Assembly: GCA_902774905.1 (NCBI GenBank)
Contig: CACYKF010000001.1
Location: 124,001-188,000, forward strand
Length of the DNA stretch: 64,000 nt
Direction of reading: 5' to 3'
From: an uncultured bacterium
Lineage (GTDB): Bacteria; Cyanobacteriota; Vampirovibrionia; Gastranaerophilales; Gastranaerophilaceae
Of this stretch, positions 12,258 to 40,251 are shown piece after piece (positions within the stretch are counted from its first letter, which is position 1; each line of letters opens with the position of its first letter). A model generated the notes under the pieces. The model saw only the letters and a list, made by a program, of their open reading frames with translations. It did not search any database and was not told the DNA's origin. Made by a program: the position numbers and the translations under genes.

Positions 12258-14249
12258 TTGAATTTTAGTTCGCTGAAAAAGATTTTATTAGCAATATTGC
12301 TGGTTTCACTCACGCAGACCTGTGCATATTCAATTGATGATGTATGGGGCTCAAGCATGGGTATAACTGAAGATGCTATAAAACAGAATACGACTACAAA
12401 TACTATCTTTGATGCTTCAGATGTTCCGAGTTTAAGAACAGAAACTTCTGCTCCCGAAGTTAACCCCGATGTTTTACCAACCCCTGTTATTTCTCAAGAA
12501 AAAACTATCAAAAGCATTGAATTTATGGGCTTGAACTCTCTTAGTCAGGAAGAAATTTTATCCCAAATGAAAATGAAGGTTGGTGAACCGTATAATCGTT
12601 CAGATATGCAGGATGATTTAAAAACTATCTATGAAACGGGTTATTTTTCGGAAAGGATGAAGGCTATTCCGACAAATAATGATGACGGTACGATTACTAT
12701 TAAAATTATTGTAGAAGAAAATATTTCTGTTAAAGATTTTACAATAGACGGCAATACAGTAATTTCTACCGAAGATATTCTTTCAAAACTTGAAGAAATG
12801 AAGGGAAAACCCCAGAATATTGCGAAAATAAATGAGGCCATTACAAAGATTCAGGATTTATACATGCAGAAAGGTTACATTCTCTCCCGAATTGCCTCAG
12901 TAACTGATGACCCCGATGGTACAATTAATATTGTTATCAAAGAAGGTGTCATTGATAAAATCATGATTGAAGGCAACGAAAAGACAAAAGATTATGTCGT
13001 TGCCAGAAACATTTTAACAGAGCCGGGCATGGTTTATAACGAAAACATGATTAAAGAAGATCTTGTCCGTTTGTATGCTACTCAGGCATTTAAAGATGTA
13101 ACAAGAGAGATTGAACCCAGTGCAGATGTTGAAGATGCTTATGATATAACAATAAAAATTAAAGAACAAAGAACGGCAAGTGTGTCTGTAGGTGGTGGTC
13201 TTGATACGGCAACCGGTCTTTTCGGTTCTTTGGGGATAAGTGAAAATAATTTCCGCGGCAGAGCCGAAAGAATTTCTTTGACAGGCTTGGCTGGTACCGG
13301 TGTTATTATGAACGATAATTCTGTCGTAAATCACATGAATATTCAGGCAGAATTGAGTTATTTCAAACCTTATTTCTTTAACTCTGATACTTCGCTTAAT
13401 ACCAGATTGTTCTTTAGAGATTTTGGTTCTTATCAGGTCCCGATGGCTATTGAACAGAGATTTGGCGGAGAATTTACAGTTGCGCATAAATTCAAAAGAA
13501 ATCGTCATACAACGGCAACTTTTGGCTTGGGTGTGGAAAATATCAATGTTAAAGAGGGTGACAGAAAGAAAATCACAAGTTTGTATGAAAAATATAATGT
13601 TCCTTTATCGGAACGTGCAAAACAACTTGAAGGTGGTTTGTTCCTGTCTTTGAGTCCTGCATTATTGTATGATACAAGGGATTCTGCAACAATTACCCGT
13701 CATGGTACGATGGCAAGTTTAAGATTTGATGAAAATATTGGGCTGAACGGTTTGAATAAAACAAACGGCAAATTGACCGGTATGATAAAACAATATATTC
13801 CGATTGCAAAGAAATCTTCTTTCTCTTTGACTGTAAAAGGTGGCGGTGCAATTCATGGAAATATTCCTGAAGTTATGGCGTATCGTTTAGGTGGTCCGTA
13901 TTCTATCAGAGGTTTCAAAATGAGCGGTGTTGGTACGGGTAATGCATTCATAATGGGTTCTGCCGAATTTGCAACTCCAATTCCGTTTATGGACAGAACA
14001 AGAATTGCATTCCTGAACAACCTGAGATTTACAATGTGGGTTGATGCAGGTAAAGTGTTTAATTCTACTGTTTCGGATAAAATTTATGACAGACCTATGT
14101 ACGCTATATCAGCAGGTGTTGGTTTGAAGGTATTTATTCCGGGCATGGGGCCGTTATCAATTGACTATGGTATTCCGCTCACAAATCCGGGGCGTAACGG
14201 TTCTAAAAGCGGTTACTTTACCTTTGGTGTAGGCGATTTGATGTACTAA
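12258..14249 (+). CDS. bamA: Outer-membrane assembly factor BamA (Omp85)
   Basis: The 663 aa product has a signal peptide (residues 1-25, ending TCAYS), about three POTRA domains in residues 90-330 (IKSIEFMGLNSLSQEEIL, VKDFTIDGNTVISTEDIL, IDKIMIEGNEKTKDYV) and a C-terminal 16-strand barrel. The barrel has the Omp85 loop motif PYSIRGF near residue 548. BamA folds and inserts outer-membrane proteins, so the cell is diderm. The number of POTRAs fits cyanobacterial Omp85 rather than the five of proteobacteria. The start is TTG 12258 with TAAGGGA 8 nt upstream. The Skp-like gene follows with its own promoter, as in many diderms. Confidence 0.95.
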   Translation: MNFSSLKKILLAILLVSLTQTCAYSIDDVWGSSMGITEDAIKQNTTTNTIFDASDVPSLRTETSAPEVNPDVLPTPVISQEKTIKSIEFMGLNSLSQEEILSQMKMKVGEPYNRSDMQDDLKTIYETGYFSERMKAIPTNNDDGTITIKIIVEENISVKDFTIDGNTVISTEDILSKLEEMKGKPQNIAKINEAITKIQDLYMQKGYILSRIASVTDDPDGTINIVIKEGVIDKIMIEGNEKTKDYVVARNILTEPGMVYNENMIKEDLVRLYATQAFKDVTREIEPSADVEDAYDITIKIKEQRTASVSVGGGLDTATGLFGSLGISENNFRGRAERISLTGLAGTGVIMNDNSVVNHMNIQAELSYFKPYFFNSDTSLNTRLFFRDFGSYQVPMAIEQRFGGEFTVAHKFKRNRHTTATFGLGVENINVKEGDRKKITSLYEKYNVPLSERAKQLEGGLFLSLSPALLYDTRDSATITRHGTMASLRFDENIGLNGLNKTNGKLTGMIKQYIPIAKKSSFSLTVKGGGAIHGNIPEVMAYRLGGPYSIRGFKMSGVGTGNAFIMGSAEFATPIPFMDRTRIAFLNNLRFTMWVDAGKVFNSTVSDKIYDRPMYAISAGVGLKVFIPGMGPLSIDYGIPLTNPGRNGSKSGYFTFGVGDLMY

Positions 14250-14307: not shown

Positions 14308-14757
14308 ATGAAAAATTTAAAATTAATGGCTTTATTAGCGGTTGCAGGTGTTGCATTGACCTGCTCAAATGCTGCAAATGCGGAAGTAGGTTACATTGAT
14401 TATCAAAGAGTTTTGGAAAGTTATCCTGCTGCGCAGTCTGCAGTAAAAGAAATTGATGCAAAAACTCTTGAACTTCAGCAATATATGCTTGAACAGGAAA
14501 AACAGTATAAGAATTTGTCAACTCCTTTGCAGAAACAAAATTTTGAAAATCAGGCTGCTAATACTTTAAAATCAAAACAAGAAGCATTGATGAAACTGCA
14601 AAGAGATAAAGAAAACCAAATTATGACTCAGATTCAGGGCGCAGCAAAACAGGTTATGGTTGCACAAAGGCTTGATGCAATTCTGTCTGATCAGGTTGTA
14701 TTTGTCGGCGGAGTTGATGTAACTGATCAGGTTATTTCAAAATTAAAAGGACAATAA
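14308..14757 (+). CDS. OmpH/Skp-family periplasmic chaperone
   Basis: The 149 aa product has a signal peptide (MKNLKLMALLAVAGVALTC, cleavage about AANA-EVG) followed by VGYIDYQRVLESYP, the characteristic start of mature OmpH proteins, and then a long Gln/Lys-rich coiled coil (residues about 45-115). Skp-like trimers carry unfolded outer-membrane proteins to BamA. The position directly after bamA supports this. GTGGAGG lies 5 nt before ATG 14308. The udp start codon directly follows its stop. Confidence 0.88.
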   Translation: MKNLKLMALLAVAGVALTCSNAANAEVGYIDYQRVLESYPAAQSAVKEIDAKTLELQQYMLEQEKQYKNLSTPLQKQNFENQAANTLKSKQEALMKLQRDKENQIMTQIQGAAKQVMVAQRLDAILSDQVVFVGGVDVTDQVISKLKGQ

Positions 14758-15516
14758 ATGAATTATACCGAAGACGGCAGACAGTATCATATAGGGTTAA
14801 AGGAAGGGGAAGTAGGAAAGTATGTTATACTCCCCGGAGACCCAAAAAGATGCGAGAAAATAGCGCAATTTTTTGAAAACCCTGTAAAAGTTGCGGACAG
14901 TCGTGAATATGTCACTTATACCGGTTATGTTGACGGGGAAAAAGTCAGTGTAACTTCAACGGGTATTGGTGGTCCGTCTGCAGCGATTGCACTTGAAGAA
15001 CTTGTGAAATGCGGAGCACAAACTTTTATCCGTGTCGGTACTTGTGGTGGAATTGATACAAATGTAAAAGGCGGAGATATCGTCATTGCAACAGGTGCAA
15101 TTCGTGCCGAAGGTACAAGCAGAGAATATGCACCGATTGAATTTCCTGCCGTTGCTAATCTTGATGTTGTAAATTCGCTTGTAGAAAGTGCAAAGAAATT
15201 AGGCTTTGATTATCATACGGGAGTCGTTCAGTGCAAAGATTCTTTTTATGGGCAGCATTGTCCTGACAGAATGCCTGTTTCAAACGAATTGATAAATCGT
15301 TGGGAAGCATGGAAGCGTATGGGGTGCCTTGCTTCGGAAATGGAATCTGCGGCATTATTTATTGTTGCGAGTTATTTAAGAGTAAAAATCGGTTCGGTTT
15401 TTCTTGTTGTTGCTAATCAGGAGCGTGAGAAAGAGGGGTTGGAAAATCCTGTTGTTCATGACACTGAAAAGGCTATTAAAACAGCGATAGAGGCTATAAA
15501 AATTTTAAAAGGGTAA
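14758..15516 (+). CDS. udp: Uridine phosphorylase
   Basis: The 252 aa product is a nucleoside phosphorylase-I family member: [14 protein letters not shown] (phosphate-binding GD), [33 protein letters not shown] and [12 protein letters not shown] (ribose-binding Glu-Met-Glu). The combination of FYGQ and the length is typical of uridine phosphorylase, which splits uridine into uracil and ribose 1-phosphate for salvage. ATG 14758 is adjacent to the skp stop, so the two are translationally linked. Specificity for uridine over other nucleosides is inferred. Confidence 0.93.
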
Positions 15517-15521
15517 AAATT

Positions 15522-17000
15522 ATGTTTGGTAAAAGCAGAATGGAATATGTTATCAAAACATGTTCGGCGCAAAATGCACAAGAATTACAAAATCTTTTAA
15601 ATGAAATGTCTATGAAAGGCTGGGAATTATACAGCATGACAGAAGTTGGTTCTGATGATGATGAAAGTGCGCAATTAAACTGTATTTTTATGCGTGAAGC
15701 AAAATCTGCCGAATCTTCAGGCGATATAATAAGCATTTCTGATTTTAAAAGCCAAATGGAAAAAATGCTTTCCCCTAAAATGACCGAATACGAAAAGTGT
15801 ATTGAAATTCAGAGTAAAATTAAACAAAAGAGAGATGAAATAAATCAGGTTAAAGCGCAACTTGACGGTGAAGCACCTGTTTCAAGAAAAAAATTGAACG
15901 ATAAAATTTCAACAGGTTTAAAGGCGCTTGATGATTTGAAAGGGGAGTTAAACAAGGCAACCTCTCCTGATTTGATGTATTCAAAACTCCATGAAGAAAA
16001 ACTTGCAATATATTTAAGTGAAGAACTTTTGGGTTTTGTAGATTTTGAACGCTCTGATTTCGGGGAAGAACAACTTGTTGCCCAAACCGTAAAAGCAAGG
16101 CTTGAATTGACTGAAAAAAGCGGATACATTATTCCAAAAGTGGTGTTTAAAGATGACGAAAATCTAAATTCCGGAGAATTTAGTATAAGAATAAGAGGAA
16201 TGGAAGTTTTCAGAGCCGTTGTTTATCCGGGATATAAAATGTTTTACGCAGATGATTTGCATCTTGAACATAAGATTAAAAATTCCGTTACAACTGAAGA
16301 TGAACTTTCAGGTAAAAAGGTTATCTGGGTTGAAAAAGAAAAGGCTAAAGATTTTTGGCAGAGCGGTTTGACTTCATCAGAATATATAGCTAAAGCACTT
16401 GAACATATTGCGGTAAAACATGTTGAAGATTTGCTTGATTATGAAGATATTGAAAAATATCTTGATGTAGTTGAAAAAGAAAATCCGTATCTTATTGAAA
16501 ATATTGTTCCCGATATTATGACTTATGCCGATATAAAATATGTTATGGTAAGTCTTATCAAAGAGCATGTATCTATCAAAAACATCACTTATATTTTTGA
16601 AAAGATAAATGATTTTGCTGATGATGGTTCAAAGGTTGATATTATAAATAAGATACGAATTGCACTTTCCCGTCAGATTTGTTCAAAATATACAAATGAC
16701 GACGGAGAAACAATAAGTTTGTTTGATTTGTCTGACAAAACCTATTCAGAATTGATGCTTGGCTGTGATGATTCTGATGCATCTATTATAAAAATAGATG
16801 CCGATTTTGCAGAAAAAATTGCAGGAAAAATCAAGCGAAAGGCAAAGAAATTGGGTATTTATGAACCAAAAGTTATGGTACCTATTGAATACCGTCAAAT
16901 TTTATTCACATTGCTCAGTTTGTATATAAATAATATCGTTGTTCTTGCTCAGGAAGAAATCGGAGCATCTTTCAAAACAGATATTATAGGTGAAATTTAA
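15522..17000 (+). CDS. DUF4177 domain fused to a soluble FlhA/FHIPEP-type cytoplasmic domain
   Basis: The 492 aa protein has no signal peptide and no membrane segment. Residues 1-60 (MEYVIKTCSAQNAQELQ, GWELYSMTEVG) look like DUF4177. Residues about 75-155 form a charged coiled coil. From about residue 165 the sequence follows the cytoplasmic domain of FlhA/FHIPEP export-gate proteins in order: a LLGFVD strand, GYIIPKVVFKDDENL, FSIRIRGMEVF, KVIWVEKEKAKDFWQSGLT, HVEDLLDYEDIEKYLDVV, ENIVPDIMTYADIKYVM, KEHVSIKNITYIFEKI, IRIALSRQICSKY and a final Rossmann-like subdomain. In known export systems this domain forms a nonameric ring that docks chaperone-substrate complexes. The eight-helix membrane part is missing and no export apparatus gene is nearby. 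It lies 5 nt after udp and 28 nt before the strong pilin Shine-Dalgarno. Confidence 0.85.
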   Translation: MFGKSRMEYVIKTCSAQNAQELQNLLNEMSMKGWELYSMTEVGSDDDESAQLNCIFMREAKSAESSGDIISISDFKSQMEKMLSPKMTEYEKCIEIQSKIKQKRDEINQVKAQLDGEAPVSRKKLNDKISTGLKALDDLKGELNKATSPDLMYSKLHEEKLAIYLSEELLGFVDFERSDFGEEQLVAQTVKARLELTEKSGYIIPKVVFKDDENLNSGEFSIRIRGMEVFRAVVYPGYKMFYADDLHLEHKIKNSVTTEDELSGKKVIWVEKEKAKDFWQSGLTSSEYIAKALEHIAVKHVEDLLDYEDIEKYLDVVEKENPYLIENIVPDIMTYADIKYVMVSLIKEHVSIKNITYIFEKINDFADDGSKVDIINKIRIALSRQICSKYTNDDGETISLFDLSDKTYSELMLGCDDSDASIIKIDADFAEKIAGKIKRKAKKLGIYEPKVMVPIEYRQILFTLLSLYINNIVVLAQEEIGASFKTDIIGEI

Positions 17001-17758: not shown

Positions 17759-17770
17759 TAACTATATGTA

Positions 17771-18106
17771 GATAGGATTTCTACCTCTCCTTTGGAGAGG
17801 ATGTCAACGAAGTTGACAGGAGAGGGTAAAATAATAAACCCTCTCTTGAATTTCTAATGCTCAACTTCGTTTCGCATTGAAATTCTTTTCTCCCCGTTGG
17901 GGAGATAGTGCGCAAAATTCCCTCTCCGTAGGGGAGATAGGATTTCTACCTCTCCTATGGAGAGGATGTCAACGAAGTTGACAGGAGAGGGTAAAATAAT
18001 AAACCCTCTCTTGAATTTCAAATGCTCAACTTCGTCTCGCATTGAAATTCTTTTCTCCCCCCAAGGGAGATAGGGTGTAAAATTCCCTCTCCGTAGGAGA
18101 GATAGG
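17771..18106. repeat. Two tandem repeat units of about 165 bp
   Basis: Units at 17771-17935 and 17936-18106 are near-identical. Each contains CCTCTCC/GGAGAGG hairpins, GTCAACGAAGTTGAC (a perfect palindrome with a one-base centre), a TCAACTTCGTxTCGCATTGA segment and CTCCCC/GGGGAG hairpins. The whole gap between the pilin and the convergent TPR gene (17759-18148) is filled by these units plus a small TCAGGTAATCGCCTGA hairpin at about 18113. No gene is supported. Confidence 0.8.
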
Positions 18107-18148
18107 TGTAGGTCAGGTAATCGCCTGACGATATAAGGGTAAAAAATT

Positions 18149-19549
18149 TTATTTCCCAAAAATCTTCATAATCTTATCAAGCAATCCTTCGGAATTTTCT
18201 TCTGCTCCGCCGTTTTGGAGTTTTTCAATTTTGTCTTTGATAATTTTATAATCCGCAGGATTTTTTACTATTTCAATGTAGTGTTGATAAAGTTCCAAAG
18301 CCTTTGCGTTTGCTCTTGTTTTTTCATAGGCTCTGCCCAAACTTTTGAGGGCATCAAGGTCATTTTTATCTGTTTCAATAATTTTTTCAAGATAATTAAC
18401 CTGCCCCTGATAGTCGCCAATGCTTTCTCTGTATGATGCAAGTCTTTTCAGTGCCTCTTTGTTTGTCGGGTCTTTTTTTACGATTTTTACATAATATTCG
18501 CTTGCGTGGTCAACTTCTTTGTTGCTTTCTAATAATGCCGCAAGTTCAAAGAGTAATTCGATATCGTTGTCATTAAGTTGAACGGCATTAAGGTATTCGT
18601 TGATTGCAATATCGTAATTCCCTCTTACAATATTATATCTGCCCCAATTTACATGAGCATTGTATTCATCACCTTTTTCGTCATATACAAGCGCACGCAT
18701 TTGATATGTAAGCGGTGAATTTGGTGCCAATTTATTATATTCGTCAATACATTCAAGCGCCTGGTCAAATTTTTTGGCAGAATAAAAATATTGCGCTTTT
18801 AATGTGAAATATCTCGGAACCTGTTTAAGTTCATCGCTTAAACCATTCAATTTAGCGTATGCTTCTTCAACCTGACCGATTTCAAGCATACATTGAATCT
18901 TTAGGAGTTCATCATTTGTAAACTCAATTGCTTTTTGTGCATCTCCGCTTTTTAAATATACAGCGGCAAGTCCTTCGTTAATTTTGGGGGTATCAAACCC
19001 TCTTTGTTTTGCTCTCATTAGCGTATCTATTGCAGACGAATATGCTTCATCTTTCATATACATATCGGCAAGTTGCAAAAACATTTCTTCGTGAACATCA
19101 CTTCCTTCAAGCAAAATATTAAATTGATCAATTGCTTTCATATCCTGTCCTGCTTGTTTGTATAGATTTGCAAGAGTAAAGCGTGTCATTGCAGCCTGTG
19201 CGCCGTCAGAACATAACCCCAGTGCTTTTTTGAAATCGTTTATCGCAAAATCCAATTTGCCTTCAATAGAGTTTTTGTTTCCTCTGTAAACATAGTATTT
19301 ATAGGCATCAGTGTCTTCATAAATGGACATCAGCTGTTCATAAGCAAGCGGATTTGTAACATCACGCTTTAATATTTCGTGGTAATAACCTGCTGCTTCT
19401 TCTGTTTTATCAAGAATTAAAGATAAATGACCAAGACGCTCTAATATTCCCATATTATCGGGGTTTGATTCATATTCTTTTTTATATTCACGATATGCTT
19501 CTTCGTATTGCTCATTTGCTTCAAATTGTTCAGCGAGTTGCAAACTCAT
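18149..19549 (-). CDS. Tetratricopeptide repeat protein
   Basis: The 466 aa protein is built of about ten or more TPR units over nearly its whole length (for example EEAAGYYHEILKRDVTNPLA, GNYDIAINEYLNAVQLN, KALELYQHYIEI). It ends with a short amphipathic tail (GLLDKIMKIFGK). There is no signal peptide or membrane segment, so it is probably a cytoplasmic scaffold. AAGGAGT stands 9 nt before ATG 19549. It is followed upstream by pth on the same strand, probably independently transcribed. The partner is unknown. Confidence 0.88.
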   Translation of the reverse strand: MSLQLAEQFEANEQYEEAYREYKKEYESNPDNMGILERLGHLSLILDKTEEAAGYYHEILKRDVTNPLAYEQLMSIYEDTDAYKYYVYRGNKNSIEGKLDFAINDFKKALGLCSDGAQAAMTRFTLANLYKQAGQDMKAIDQFNILLEGSDVHEEMFLQLADMYMKDEAYSSAIDTLMRAKQRGFDTPKINEGLAAVYLKSGDAQKAIEFTNDELLKIQCMLEIGQVEEAYAKLNGLSDELKQVPRYFTLKAQYFYSAKKFDQALECIDEYNKLAPNSPLTYQMRALVYDEKGDEYNAHVNWGRYNIVRGNYDIAINEYLNAVQLNDNDIELLFELAALLESNKEVDHASEYYVKIVKKDPTNKEALKRLASYRESIGDYQGQVNYLEKIIETDKNDLDALKSLGRAYEKTRANAKALELYQHYIEIVKNPADYKIIKDKIEKLQNGGAEENSEGLLDKIMKIFGK

Positions 19550-36741: not shown

Positions 36742-39700
36742 TTATTGGTCGATGTCTTGTACATCGGATTGCACTGCATCAGAGTCTTTTGTTTCAGGCA
36801 AATCCGATAAATCTATATTATTATCTGCAAGAAATTTATCAATATCAACATCTGTACTGAAATTTAACCCGTATTTTTTAACAATATATTTTGCCTGTGC
36901 AAGGCATATATCGGCTTTATCTGTAATCTTCAGGCATTTCATAAGTTTAAACATATTAAATTTGATAAGAAGCATCAGATAATCACTGACTCCGCCAAGT
37001 TTTTCCATTTGAATTGAGGAGTTATTCAACATTCCGTAAGCAATATCAAATCTTCCCTGCTTCATATTCATAATACTTAAAATATACCACGCCATAAATG
37101 TTATAGCATTAAGACCTTTATCTTTTGAGGTTTTAACGACCTCATAAAGAATTGATGATGCTTTATAATATGATTTTAATTCAGCATAAGAATATCCGAT
37201 AACCAAATCCGCAAAGAGTTCAAACGGATAAACAAAACTTTCCTTTGCTACAAGTTTTGTCTTATAAATTTCTTTTGCCATTTCGGTAGGGTTATCTCTA
37301 TGCTGAGTAAAGGTTTTTATTATATGGTAAACAATTTCGGTAAACGGATTTTTACCTTTATCGCTATCTGATACCGAAACTTCATTGCCTTTTATTAAAT
37401 CCTGCAATTTGACAAATATAGCGTATTCTTTCGGAACAAAGTCATAGAGTTTATTTACAATCGTGAGGAGTTCATTTACATCTTCTCTCAAAGTCAATAT
37501 ATCAGATAGTGCGACATAGGCAATCGCTTCTGATATAAGGTATTTTAAATCCTCTTTTGAAATAAGTGTGTACTCAATAGAATCGAGTTTTGACGATTCC
37601 AAAGCATTGAAAACATTATAACCGATATCAATACAATCATTAAAAGCACCAATGCCAAACAATATCTTGATATGCACAATAGACATCAGTAAAAATTTTA
37701 AATCAAAATTCTTTGCTGACGGGTCAATTGAAGCATCATTCATAGCCGTCAAAATCTTATGAGTCAAGCCCAAAGCATAAAGATATTCGCCGTGGTTTAA
37801 TGCTCCTTGAATCATTTTTGTACACAAATCGGTAAAATTGTCTTTGTCTTGTGATTTTTGCAAATCTTCAAGTGTTTTATCCGCAATTTCTCTTGTCTGT
37901 TCAGGGTCATATTCAAACATATTGTTTGCAATATTTTCATAGATTGTAGATTTATAAGACGCAAGTTCTTCTTTAGACCAATCTTGTGCATTTTTATCAA
38001 GCGCCTTGATAAGTTGCCCCGAGCAATTCAGATACGCAGAAAAATCCCCCATGGATAAATCAAGATTTGCAAGATTTTCCCACTCGGATATAACTTTTTG
38101 ATTTTCATCTAAAACGGAATACATAGAAGCCTTTTCAGGAGCAGGCATTTGTTCTGTAAAGACTTTTTCAAAAAGTTCTGAAGCCAATTCTTTAATTTTA
38201 TCGTCATCATAAATTTCAAGTATATTTTCACGTAAAATATTGTAATTCGGAAAATATATACTGTCATTGTAAAAATATAAGAAACCTCTCTTTGAAAGTT
38301 CGTCTGCCAAAGTTTTCCAATCTTCAATCCCCAAAGATTCCGCAGTTTTTGAATCAACTCTTGCCCCCAACAAAGCGCACATTGAAAGAAGTTTGAGAGA
38401 ATTTTCTTCATCTTTCATAAGATTTAATCTTCTCTGCATCATAAGTTTCAGACTTGACGGAATCATTGTTGTTTTAGCATTCAGAAGTTCTATTTTTTCA
38501 TTTTCAAAAGCATAAACTTCAGACTCGATAAGATATTGAATTGCATAATCTATAAACAATGTACTTCCTGCAGCATATTTTGAAATACGCTTGAAGAAGA
38601 AATCGTTTTTAATATTTGAGTAATAATCCCCGCCTGCTTCGACAATGTTTTCAAAAGTAGTCGGAATAAGGGTAATTTCCGTATAATAAGGTCTTGATAA
38701 TAAGAAATGATTGTATTTGTGAAGTGAAAACTCTTTGTCATAAGACAAAATACAACTGATTTTCATTTCTTCAAAATGGTCAAACAACAAGCCCAAAACA
38801 AACATTGAACTTGAATCAATTTTCTCAAAATTTTCAACATATATTAATGTTTCAGGAATAGATTGCAATAACGACAAAAATACCTCAAAATACTTTTGTC
38901 TTGTATCCTCAAGGTTATCCATCCCCCTCTGTTTGAGATTAATCAAATCTTTAAGCAAATTATCGGAATCAAATGCAGAGAACGATGAAAAATCATTTGT
39001 ATTAAACAATTTTTGAGAAACAGTAAAATCAAATATTGCTGAAACCAATTCCCTAAAGAATGAATATGGTGAATATTTCATATTATCGTGGCAGGTAATC
39101 GGAATAATATTTTGGTATAAACCTAACTGACTGACATTTGCAAGAACACTGATTGTATAAGGCTGGTACATGCTTGAACCTTTTATGCCAATAATGCCTT
39201 TAGGAACCTCCTGCAATACTTCGGTAATATTATCCAAAACTTTTACATTCTCTGTTGTATAAAACGCACAGTTTATTTCGTCAAAATTGATTAATTCAAC
39301 GCTGTATAAATCTTCTCCTGCAATTTCATTAACTTCTTCTATTGTTCTTTCAACAATTTTATCCTGAGCAAGCATACCTTCATTTACAAAATTCGGGACT
39401 TCAGGATTTGCTTCTTCTTCCTCCGCCATTGCTTCTTTTACATAATCGTCAATTGGAATAAATTCTTTAATATCAATTTCAAAGAATCGTTTCATTTTAC
39501 CGTTTACTAATGCAGAATCTAAAGACTCCATCTTGTAAGTTTTAGAATAAAATTCTTCAAAATCATCATCAGTTGTAACTTGGCAGGATTCTAACGCTTT
39601 GGCAGACTTGTCATTGCTTTGATTAAGCATATTTGCCTGAAACCCTGTTTCTATATCATAAGGGTCTTTATCCGCATCACGCTTCATTATTGTAAAATTA

Positions 39701-40251
39701 GCCTTTAAAAATATATTTTTCTTATTAATGAGTTTTACATTAAGGCGTGTAATCTGTTTAGCAAGTTCTATAACCCCTTCTATTGCGGAATTTGCAGAAG
39801 ATGACATTGTATATGCTTTATTAAAACGCAAAAGATAAATTCCGTTTTTGACGATTTGTCTTCTAATACTATGGCTTAATGCAAAGCCGTTAATCATTTT
39901 GTCAATGTTTGCTTTAAATTTTGTAAACAGTTGGTTTGAACCCAATGCGGTTTTAATGACATCATAATTTGGGAAATCAATTTTAACCACAGCAAAAGTA
40001 TCCGCATTAGACTCAGCCTGTACGGCACTAATCTCTGTTGAGTGACCGCACTTTATACACTTTTGGTTCTTCATCATGTTGATTTTGCCGCAGTTTGAGC
40101 ATTTAACAACAAGAATTTCTCCGCACTTCTTACATATATTTTTTTCATTAACGGTTCTGCAGACAGGGCAAACGATTTTTAGCACCTTTTTACAGTTAGG
40201 GCAAACCATTGCGCTTTTATCAATTTCCGCACCGCATTTTGGACATTCCAT
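36742..40251 (-). CDS. Very large zinc-ribbon protein with degenerate ATPase and TPR-like region
   Basis: The 1169 aa protein opens with three zinc ribbons (Cys pairs at residues 3/6, 17/20, 28/31, 40/43, 51/54, 65/68). Residues about 80-230 form an alpha/beta domain that may be a decayed nucleotide cyclase. Residues about 340-600 resemble an AAA_16/STAND ATPase: the expected P-loop reads GIKGSSMYQ without a GK[ST], while a Walker B-like strand LIYVENFEKIDSSS remains. The rest is helical, MalT/TPR-like. The layout recalls cyanobacterial cyclase-ATPase-TPR signalling proteins whose catalytic parts are lost. It ends 49 nt before the start of glgA and may be co-transcribed. There is no Shine-Dalgarno; a TATAAT sits 6 nt before the ATG. 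Confidence 0.75.
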   Translation of the reverse strand: MECPKCGAEIDKSAMVCPNCKKVLKIVCPVCRTVNEKNICKKCGEILVVKCSNCGKINMMKNQKCIKCGHSTEISAVQAESNADTFAVVKIDFPNYDVIKTALGSNQLFTKFKANIDKMINGFALSHSIRRQIVKNGIYLLRFNKAYTMSSSANSAIEGVIELAKQITRLNVKLINKKNIFLKANFTIMKRDADKDPYDIETGFQANMLNQSNDKSAKALESCQVTTDDDFEEFYSKTYKMESLDSALVNGKMKRFFEIDIKEFIPIDDYVKEAMAEEEEANPEVPNFVNEGMLAQDKIVERTIEEVNEIAGEDLYSVELINFDEINCAFYTTENVKVLDNITEVLQEVPKGIIGIKGSSMYQPYTISVLANVSQLGLYQNIIPITCHDNMKYSPYSFFRELVSAIFDFTVSQKLFNTNDFSSFSAFDSDNLLKDLINLKQRGMDNLEDTRQKYFEVFLSLLQSIPETLIYVENFEKIDSSSMFVLGLLFDHFEEMKISCILSYDKEFSLHKYNHFLLSRPYYTEITLIPTTFENIVEAGGDYYSNIKNDFFFKRISKYAAGSTLFIDYAIQYLIESEVYAFENEKIELLNAKTTMIPSSLKLMMQRRLNLMKDEENSLKLLSMCALLGARVDSKTAESLGIEDWKTLADELSKRGFLYFYNDSIYFPNYNILRENILEIYDDDKIKELASELFEKVFTEQMPAPEKASMYSVLDENQKVISEWENLANLDLSMGDFSAYLNCSGQLIKALDKNAQDWSKEELASYKSTIYENIANNMFEYDPEQTREIADKTLEDLQKSQDKDNFTDLCTKMIQGALNHGEYLYALGLTHKILTAMNDASIDPSAKNFDLKFLLMSIVHIKILFGIGAFNDCIDIGYNVFNALESSKLDSIEYTLISKEDLKYLISEAIAYVALSDILTLREDVNELLTIVNKLYDFVPKEYAIFVKLQDLIKGNEVSVSDSDKGKNPFTEIVYHIIKTFTQHRDNPTEMAKEIYKTKLVAKESFVYPFELFADLVIGYSYAELKSYYKASSILYEVVKTSKDKGLNAITFMAWYILSIMNMKQGRFDIAYGMLNNSSIQMEKLGGVSDYLMLLIKFNMFKLMKCLKITDKADICLAQAKYIVKKYGLNFSTDVDIDKFLADNNIDLSDLPETKDSDAVQSDVQDIDQ

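Follow-up and report, generated by a model that had tools for sequence, protein, structure and literature searches.

In our study, the window, a stretch of 64,000 nucleotides (positions 124,001 to 188,000 of contig CACYKF010000001.1, assembly GCA_902774905.1) from a gut Candidatus Gastranaerophilales genome (G000; 1.99 Mb, 99.8% complete), was found to encode a soluble paralogue of the FlhA cytoplasmic domain (FlhA-C) at positions 15522-17000 of the forward strand. The gene is called sol. The best explanation, to which we assign a probability of about 0.55, is that sol serves as a soluble accessory subunit in the export gate of a second type III machine (system 1), one not used for motility, which was kept after flagellar loss. 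The gene was tied to system 1 because of its position in the tree of FlhA cytoplasmic domains, the P149/M152 linker that it shares with the FlhA of system 1 (FlhA1), and its co-retention with that system.

The sol gene contained an ATG start and an open reading frame (ORF) of 492 amino acids (aa) without an internal stop. Residues 145-483 matched positions 317-655 of the 657 positions of the Pfam FHIPEP profile (PF00771) with an E-value of 1.5e-47; profile positions 1-316, which represent the N-terminal membrane domain, had no counterpart in sol. The NCBIfam models for FlhA and SctV gave E-values of 8.5e-44 (149.9 bits against an equivalog cut-off of 772) and 8.4e-27, respectively, and the scores fell far under both full-length cut-offs, as would be expected of half a protein. 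In a phmmer search with sol as the query, the FlhA-C of B. subtilis (3mix) was found at 7.8e-22, and the profile of the sol family matched the same structure at 1.6e-50. The AlphaFold model of sol, built with 31 orthologs, had a predicted local distance difference test score (pLDDT) of 81 and matched the solved FlhA-C 6ch2_C with an E-value of 4.1e-23 and a template modelling score of 0.83 over the target. No membrane segment was found in sol, where the highest 19-residue Kyte-Doolittle mean was 1.51, compared with means of up to 2.98, and many above 1.6, in the full-length FlhA of the same genome. The original prediction, made from the letters of the window, of a soluble FlhA/FHIPEP cytoplasmic domain without a membrane segment was confirmed by these profile, fold and hydropathy results.

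The protein was divided into four parts, all encoded on the forward strand. Residues 1-59 (15522-15698) form a head with a predicted strand-helix-strand-strand order, in which W34, I55, and F56 were invariant in the family. The head matched DUF4177 (PF13783) with an E-value of 0.012 and 16.3 bits, below the gathering cut-off of 25, and 6 of the 31 family members reached an E-value of 0.01 or lower (best 3.2e-4). The fusion to DUF4177 that had been proposed has weaker support than claimed; given the predicted fold, 'DUF4177-like' is a reasonable, though not proven, label for the head. Residues 72-146 (15735-15959) contained a helix followed by a two-helix hairpin (residues 89-116 and 119-146) in the AlphaFold model; the region described earlier as a coiled coil is predicted to be such a hairpin. 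The linker, residues 143-158 (15948-15995), contained the motif SPxxMYxK, where P149 and M152 correspond to E351 and W354 of the ring-forming plug of FlhA (PMC8213127, PMC8166844). Residues 159-492 (15996-16997) comprised the FlhA cytoplasmic domains D1-D4, as assigned by profile, fold match and alignment (PMC5932034). By sequence and predicted fold, sol is an FlhA cytoplasmic domain whose membrane half is replaced by a DUF4177-like head and a helical hairpin.

Of 286 genomes from the order Candidatus Gastranaerophilales, 282 carried sol, and most of the matches spanned the whole protein; their E-values were 1e-79 or lower, far better than the value of about 1e-38 reached by full-length FlhA. 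No flagellin was present in 162 of the 282 genomes. The gene was undetected in G134, G223, G229, and G028, the last of which was 83% complete. In other families of the class, the matches listed were of full-length FlhA (about 700 aa) only, without sol, and within the sampled genomes sol appears to be confined to this order. The orthologs were nearly constant in length (about 480-510 aa) throughout the order. The ratio of non-synonymous to synonymous substitution (dN/dS) was about 0.02-0.12 (NG86, within genus), a range that holds where dS was estimable, dS being high in the more distant pairs. The head was under the same constraint as the remainder of the protein. Judged by this conservation, sol is a functional gene and not debris.

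The number of export and flagellar genes was determined by searches of the genomes. One full-length FlhA (701 aa) was found in the genome of the window, on a contig (C31) other than that of sol, together with FliF, FliE, and FliH. FliP, FliQ, FliR, FliO, and a 424-aa protein with a C-terminal FliN domain were located on C32, FlhB on C19, FliI on C14, and FlgB, FlgC, and two FlgF/G-like rod proteins on C10. Flagellin, the rotor protein FliM, and the P-ring protein FlgI were searched for in this genome and none was found. FlhB was present in all of the 22 order genomes tested. The earlier suggestion of a gate ring separated from its channel was contradicted by the one complete export gate of the same genome (FlhA, FliP, FliQ, FliR, and FlhB) and by the FlhB of all 22 genomes tested.

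The 12 flagellated genomes that we examined contained two FliF, two FlhB (one in G002), and two FliI proteins, along with FliM and FlgI, and the aflagellate genomes examined contained one FliF (none in G121), one FlhB, and one FliI, and neither FliM nor FlgI. The flagellar FlgB-FlgC-FliE-FliF-FliG-FliH-FliI cluster, read from ORFs, was found at locus L179 and the flagellar FliPQR-FlhB-FlhA cluster at L066, which in G007 occurs alongside the other set (L065). Because flagellated relatives hold both sets and each flagellar cluster is separate, the set retained by the aflagellate species (system 1) is, by its gene content, a distinct machine and no remnant of that flagellum. The sol gene accompanied the set retained in the aflagellate genomes. 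In genus g17, two genomes (G088 and G094) were devoid of FliM, the second FliF, and FlgI and kept system 1 and sol; the other genomes of the genus contained several flagellins and three FHIPEP proteins. A single flagellin gene was still present in G094, likely as a remnant of recent flagellar loss.

The tree was built from the FlhA cytoplasmic domains of sol, of system-1 FlhA from the order and from other families of the class, of flagellar FlhA and of E. coli FlhA. In this tree, sol was placed in the clade of system-1 FlhA with a support of 100, separate from the flagellar FlhA proteins and that of E. coli. Long-branch attraction may account for a basal position of sol within the system-1 clade, and sol may have arisen either before the order or within it. 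Residues were compared between 32 sol sequences, FlhA1 and flagellar FlhA. P149 was conserved in 32 of 32 and M152 in 29 of 32 sol sequences; both, with further residues, were common to sol and FlhA1 and missing from flagellar FlhA. In solved ring structures of FlhA and SctV, the residue equivalent to W354 fills a groove of the adjacent subunit and stabilises the nonamer (PMC8213127, PMC8166844). The chaperone-substrate pocket of FlhA is a hydrophobic dimple formed by D456, F459, L461, and T490 (PMC5932034, PMC8166844). The aspartate (D260 in sol) was the sole pocket residue retained, in 30 of the 32 sequences, and the other three were polar or charged: residue 263 (F459) was substituted by T/S, residue 265 (L461) by K/R/Q, and residue 291 (T490) by K/R/N/S. 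The L461 position was already altered in FlhA1. Conservation within sol was highest in D3 and D1 and lowest in D4. In the simplest reading of these patterns, sol would be an accessory gate subunit that can still pack against FlhA-type neighbours, and its docking partners would differ from the usual chaperones, perhaps being bound via the head.

In the window, sol was preceded on the same strand by udp, encoding a uridine phosphorylase (14758-15516), whose stop lies 5 bp before sol, and further upstream by an skp/ompH-like gene (14308-14757) and a bamA/Omp85 gene (12258-14249). The udp gene was found directly upstream of sol in 56 of 66 related loci, with a typical gap of 4 bp, and skp and bamA, further upstream, were likewise conserved in the family of the window. 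Sol had different neighbours in the remaining families of the order, which have not kept the array. Co-transcription of udp and sol is probable, and udp is not considered a functional part. In genus g41 (G007 and G013), sol was located directly upstream of the flagellar fliJ-fliK-flgD-flgE genes, a placement that supports a type III role, though not one in system 1 exclusively.

In the mechanism that we propose, the linker would let sol enter or stack on the cytoplasmic ring of FlhA1, and the rebuilt pocket and the head would dock different chaperones or substrates, or block the ring until their arrival. The docking platform named in the original prediction is plausible for sol in these terms. 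More broadly, and more tentatively, Gastranaerophilales could possess a so far undescribed, flagellum-derived type III export machine that has a rod and lacks rotor, filament and P ring. Its gate would consist of a membrane FlhA ring and a soluble headed paralogue, the latter forming a further docking tier that selects substrates of its own. Several points weigh against a gate subunit of system 1. Three fairly complete genomes, G134 (98%), G229 (93%), and G223 (91%), have system 1 with no sol detected, so sol may not be strictly required. The evolution of sol was several times faster than that of FlhA1, and sol adjoins no type III gene in the window or in most relatives, its steady neighbour being udp. 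The interaction of sol and its cargo are, moreover, inferred.

The absence of a membrane anchor, the separate head domain, and the altered pocket would also suit a free cytosolic carrier or reservoir, as its own ring or a monomer, that binds chaperone-substrate pairs and passes them to FlhA1 or withholds them from it; a precedent in kind is HP1575, the soluble FlhB C-domain homologue of H. pylori. We consider this unlikely, and the ring-plug linker motif kept by sol suggests contact between subunits and not a monomeric carrier. Repurposing of sol for a task unrelated to type III secretion, with udp, skp, bamA or a surface pilus for instance, is rather more doubtful: the tight linkage to udp and the three genomes with system 1 and seemingly no sol speak for it, and the absence of the udp-skp-bamA array from other families, the changed neighbours of sol there, and the presence of FlhB in every sol-bearing genome tested speak against it. 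The pilus link raised by the original prediction was not upheld, since the gene downstream of sol, a pilin in the window, differs among close relatives, whereas the upstream udp is conserved. It is improbable that sol serves the flagellum and survives in aflagellate species with a leftover basal body. The placement of sol in genus g41 and the 2013 reading of a filament-less gut genome as ongoing flagellar loss (PMC3787301) agree with such a role, but flagellated members carry system 1 plus a complete separate flagellar set, and sol groups with system-1 FlhA in the tree. That sol lacks the membrane half and that a full-length flhA lies on another contig of the same genome could indicate a broken or decaying flhA copy, the refutation foreseen in the original prediction; this was ruled out by the order-wide orthologs, their near-constant length, and the strong purifying selection, which included the head.

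Compared with the FlhA/SctV cytoplasmic domain (PF00771), sol contained the same D1-D4 domains, fold and linker and most of the family-invariant residues (L185, R193, G201, P205, W269, E360, and R379), whereas it differed in the missing membrane domain, the added head and hairpin, the replaced GYXLI motif (G368 to S), and the altered chaperone pocket. FlhX/HP1575 of Campylobacterota is alike in kind, since there too an export-gate protein coexists with a soluble paralogue of its cytoplasmic half, but is derived from FlhB, whereas sol is derived from FlhA. To our knowledge, FlhX/HP1575 has no added head domain of the sort found in sol. HP1575 is termed a 'spare part' in a title among the references of PMC2923134. 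System 1 resembles the non-flagellar type III secretion systems, especially the secretin-less form of Myxococcales (PMC3459982), in that its type III core comes with neither rotor nor filament; it keeps FliE, FlgB, FlgC, and FlgF/G-like rod proteins, whereas the Myxococcales systems are without them. In Abby and Rocha (2012), flgB, flgC, and fliE are flagellum-specific markers, and non-flagellar systems are defined by the presence of a secretin and the absence of these three genes (PMC3459982). On its gene complement, system 1 fits neither a flagellum, having no rotor, filament or P ring, nor a non-flagellar system so defined, as flgB, flgC, and fliE are kept. Chlamydia pneumoniae is likewise a non-flagellated bacterium with flagellar export genes (FlhA, FliF, and FliI; PMC2830194); at least three flagellar orthologs are reported there, whereas the genome of the window contained a full export set, rod genes, and a soluble FlhA-C.

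Di Rienzi et al. (2013) reported 13 flagellar genes common to four genomes of the group, two of them flhA, and read the one among these four that is without filament and outer rings as a case of genome reduction (PMC3787301). From the gene tags, the second flhA may be sol. No paper that deals with a second machine, with a type III system or with a soluble FlhA was found for this group in a search that left most subscription journals outside, in agreement with the earlier statement that no function is described. The larger finding is possibly system 1. If our explanation is true, an order of common gut bacteria, many of them aflagellate, retains an export machine so far taken for flagellar debris, and a flagellum-derived secretion system has been preserved beyond the described injectisome lineages. 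The additional soluble FlhA-like component of its gate would then offer a natural experiment on cargo selection by the FlhA ring, and the question is raised of what these gut commensals export.

Further genes were observed in system 1. FliJ-like, FliK-like, and short hook-like genes were found in a row in G007 and G031 (L339:3400-5568 and L332:1193-3292), the FliJ-like gene of G007 with a weak match (0.0011), and the row suggests that a short external or periplasmic structure is built. The idea that the helical hairpin of sol stands in for a missing FliJ was dropped, as system 1 in these genomes has its own FliJ-like gene. The fliG position of the operon, between fliF and fliH, was occupied by an all-helical protein of about 340 aa (on C31 in the genome of the window, L083:4078-5100; also at L067, L070, L071, L079, L065, and L177). 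It was rejected as an ordinary FliG, with no significant Pfam or PDB profile match and no fold match at an E-value of 0.001 or lower; relatives were present in other families of the class. In genus g10 (G041, contig C9, L068:9042-10823), a 593-aa fusion contained the N-terminal domain of this helical protein, a membrane segment, and an FlhA1-like cytoplasmic domain, and adjoined two-component regulators. A paralogue of the N-terminal domain (about 225 aa) was located 0.2-4.5 kb from sol in several genomes of the same genus (L019:636-1313, L198:11121-11792, L200:13831-14511, L203:13054-13737, and L199:12366-13052), and was not present in the window.

Elsewhere in the window, a 1169-aa protein encoded on the reverse strand (36742-40251) carried a double zinc ribbon at its N-terminus and had no further match in Pfam. 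Downstream of the pilin gene, a 165-bp repeat was found in two tandem copies (17770-18099) with 93% identity; a reverse-strand ORF within it (17854-18159) is probably not a gene.
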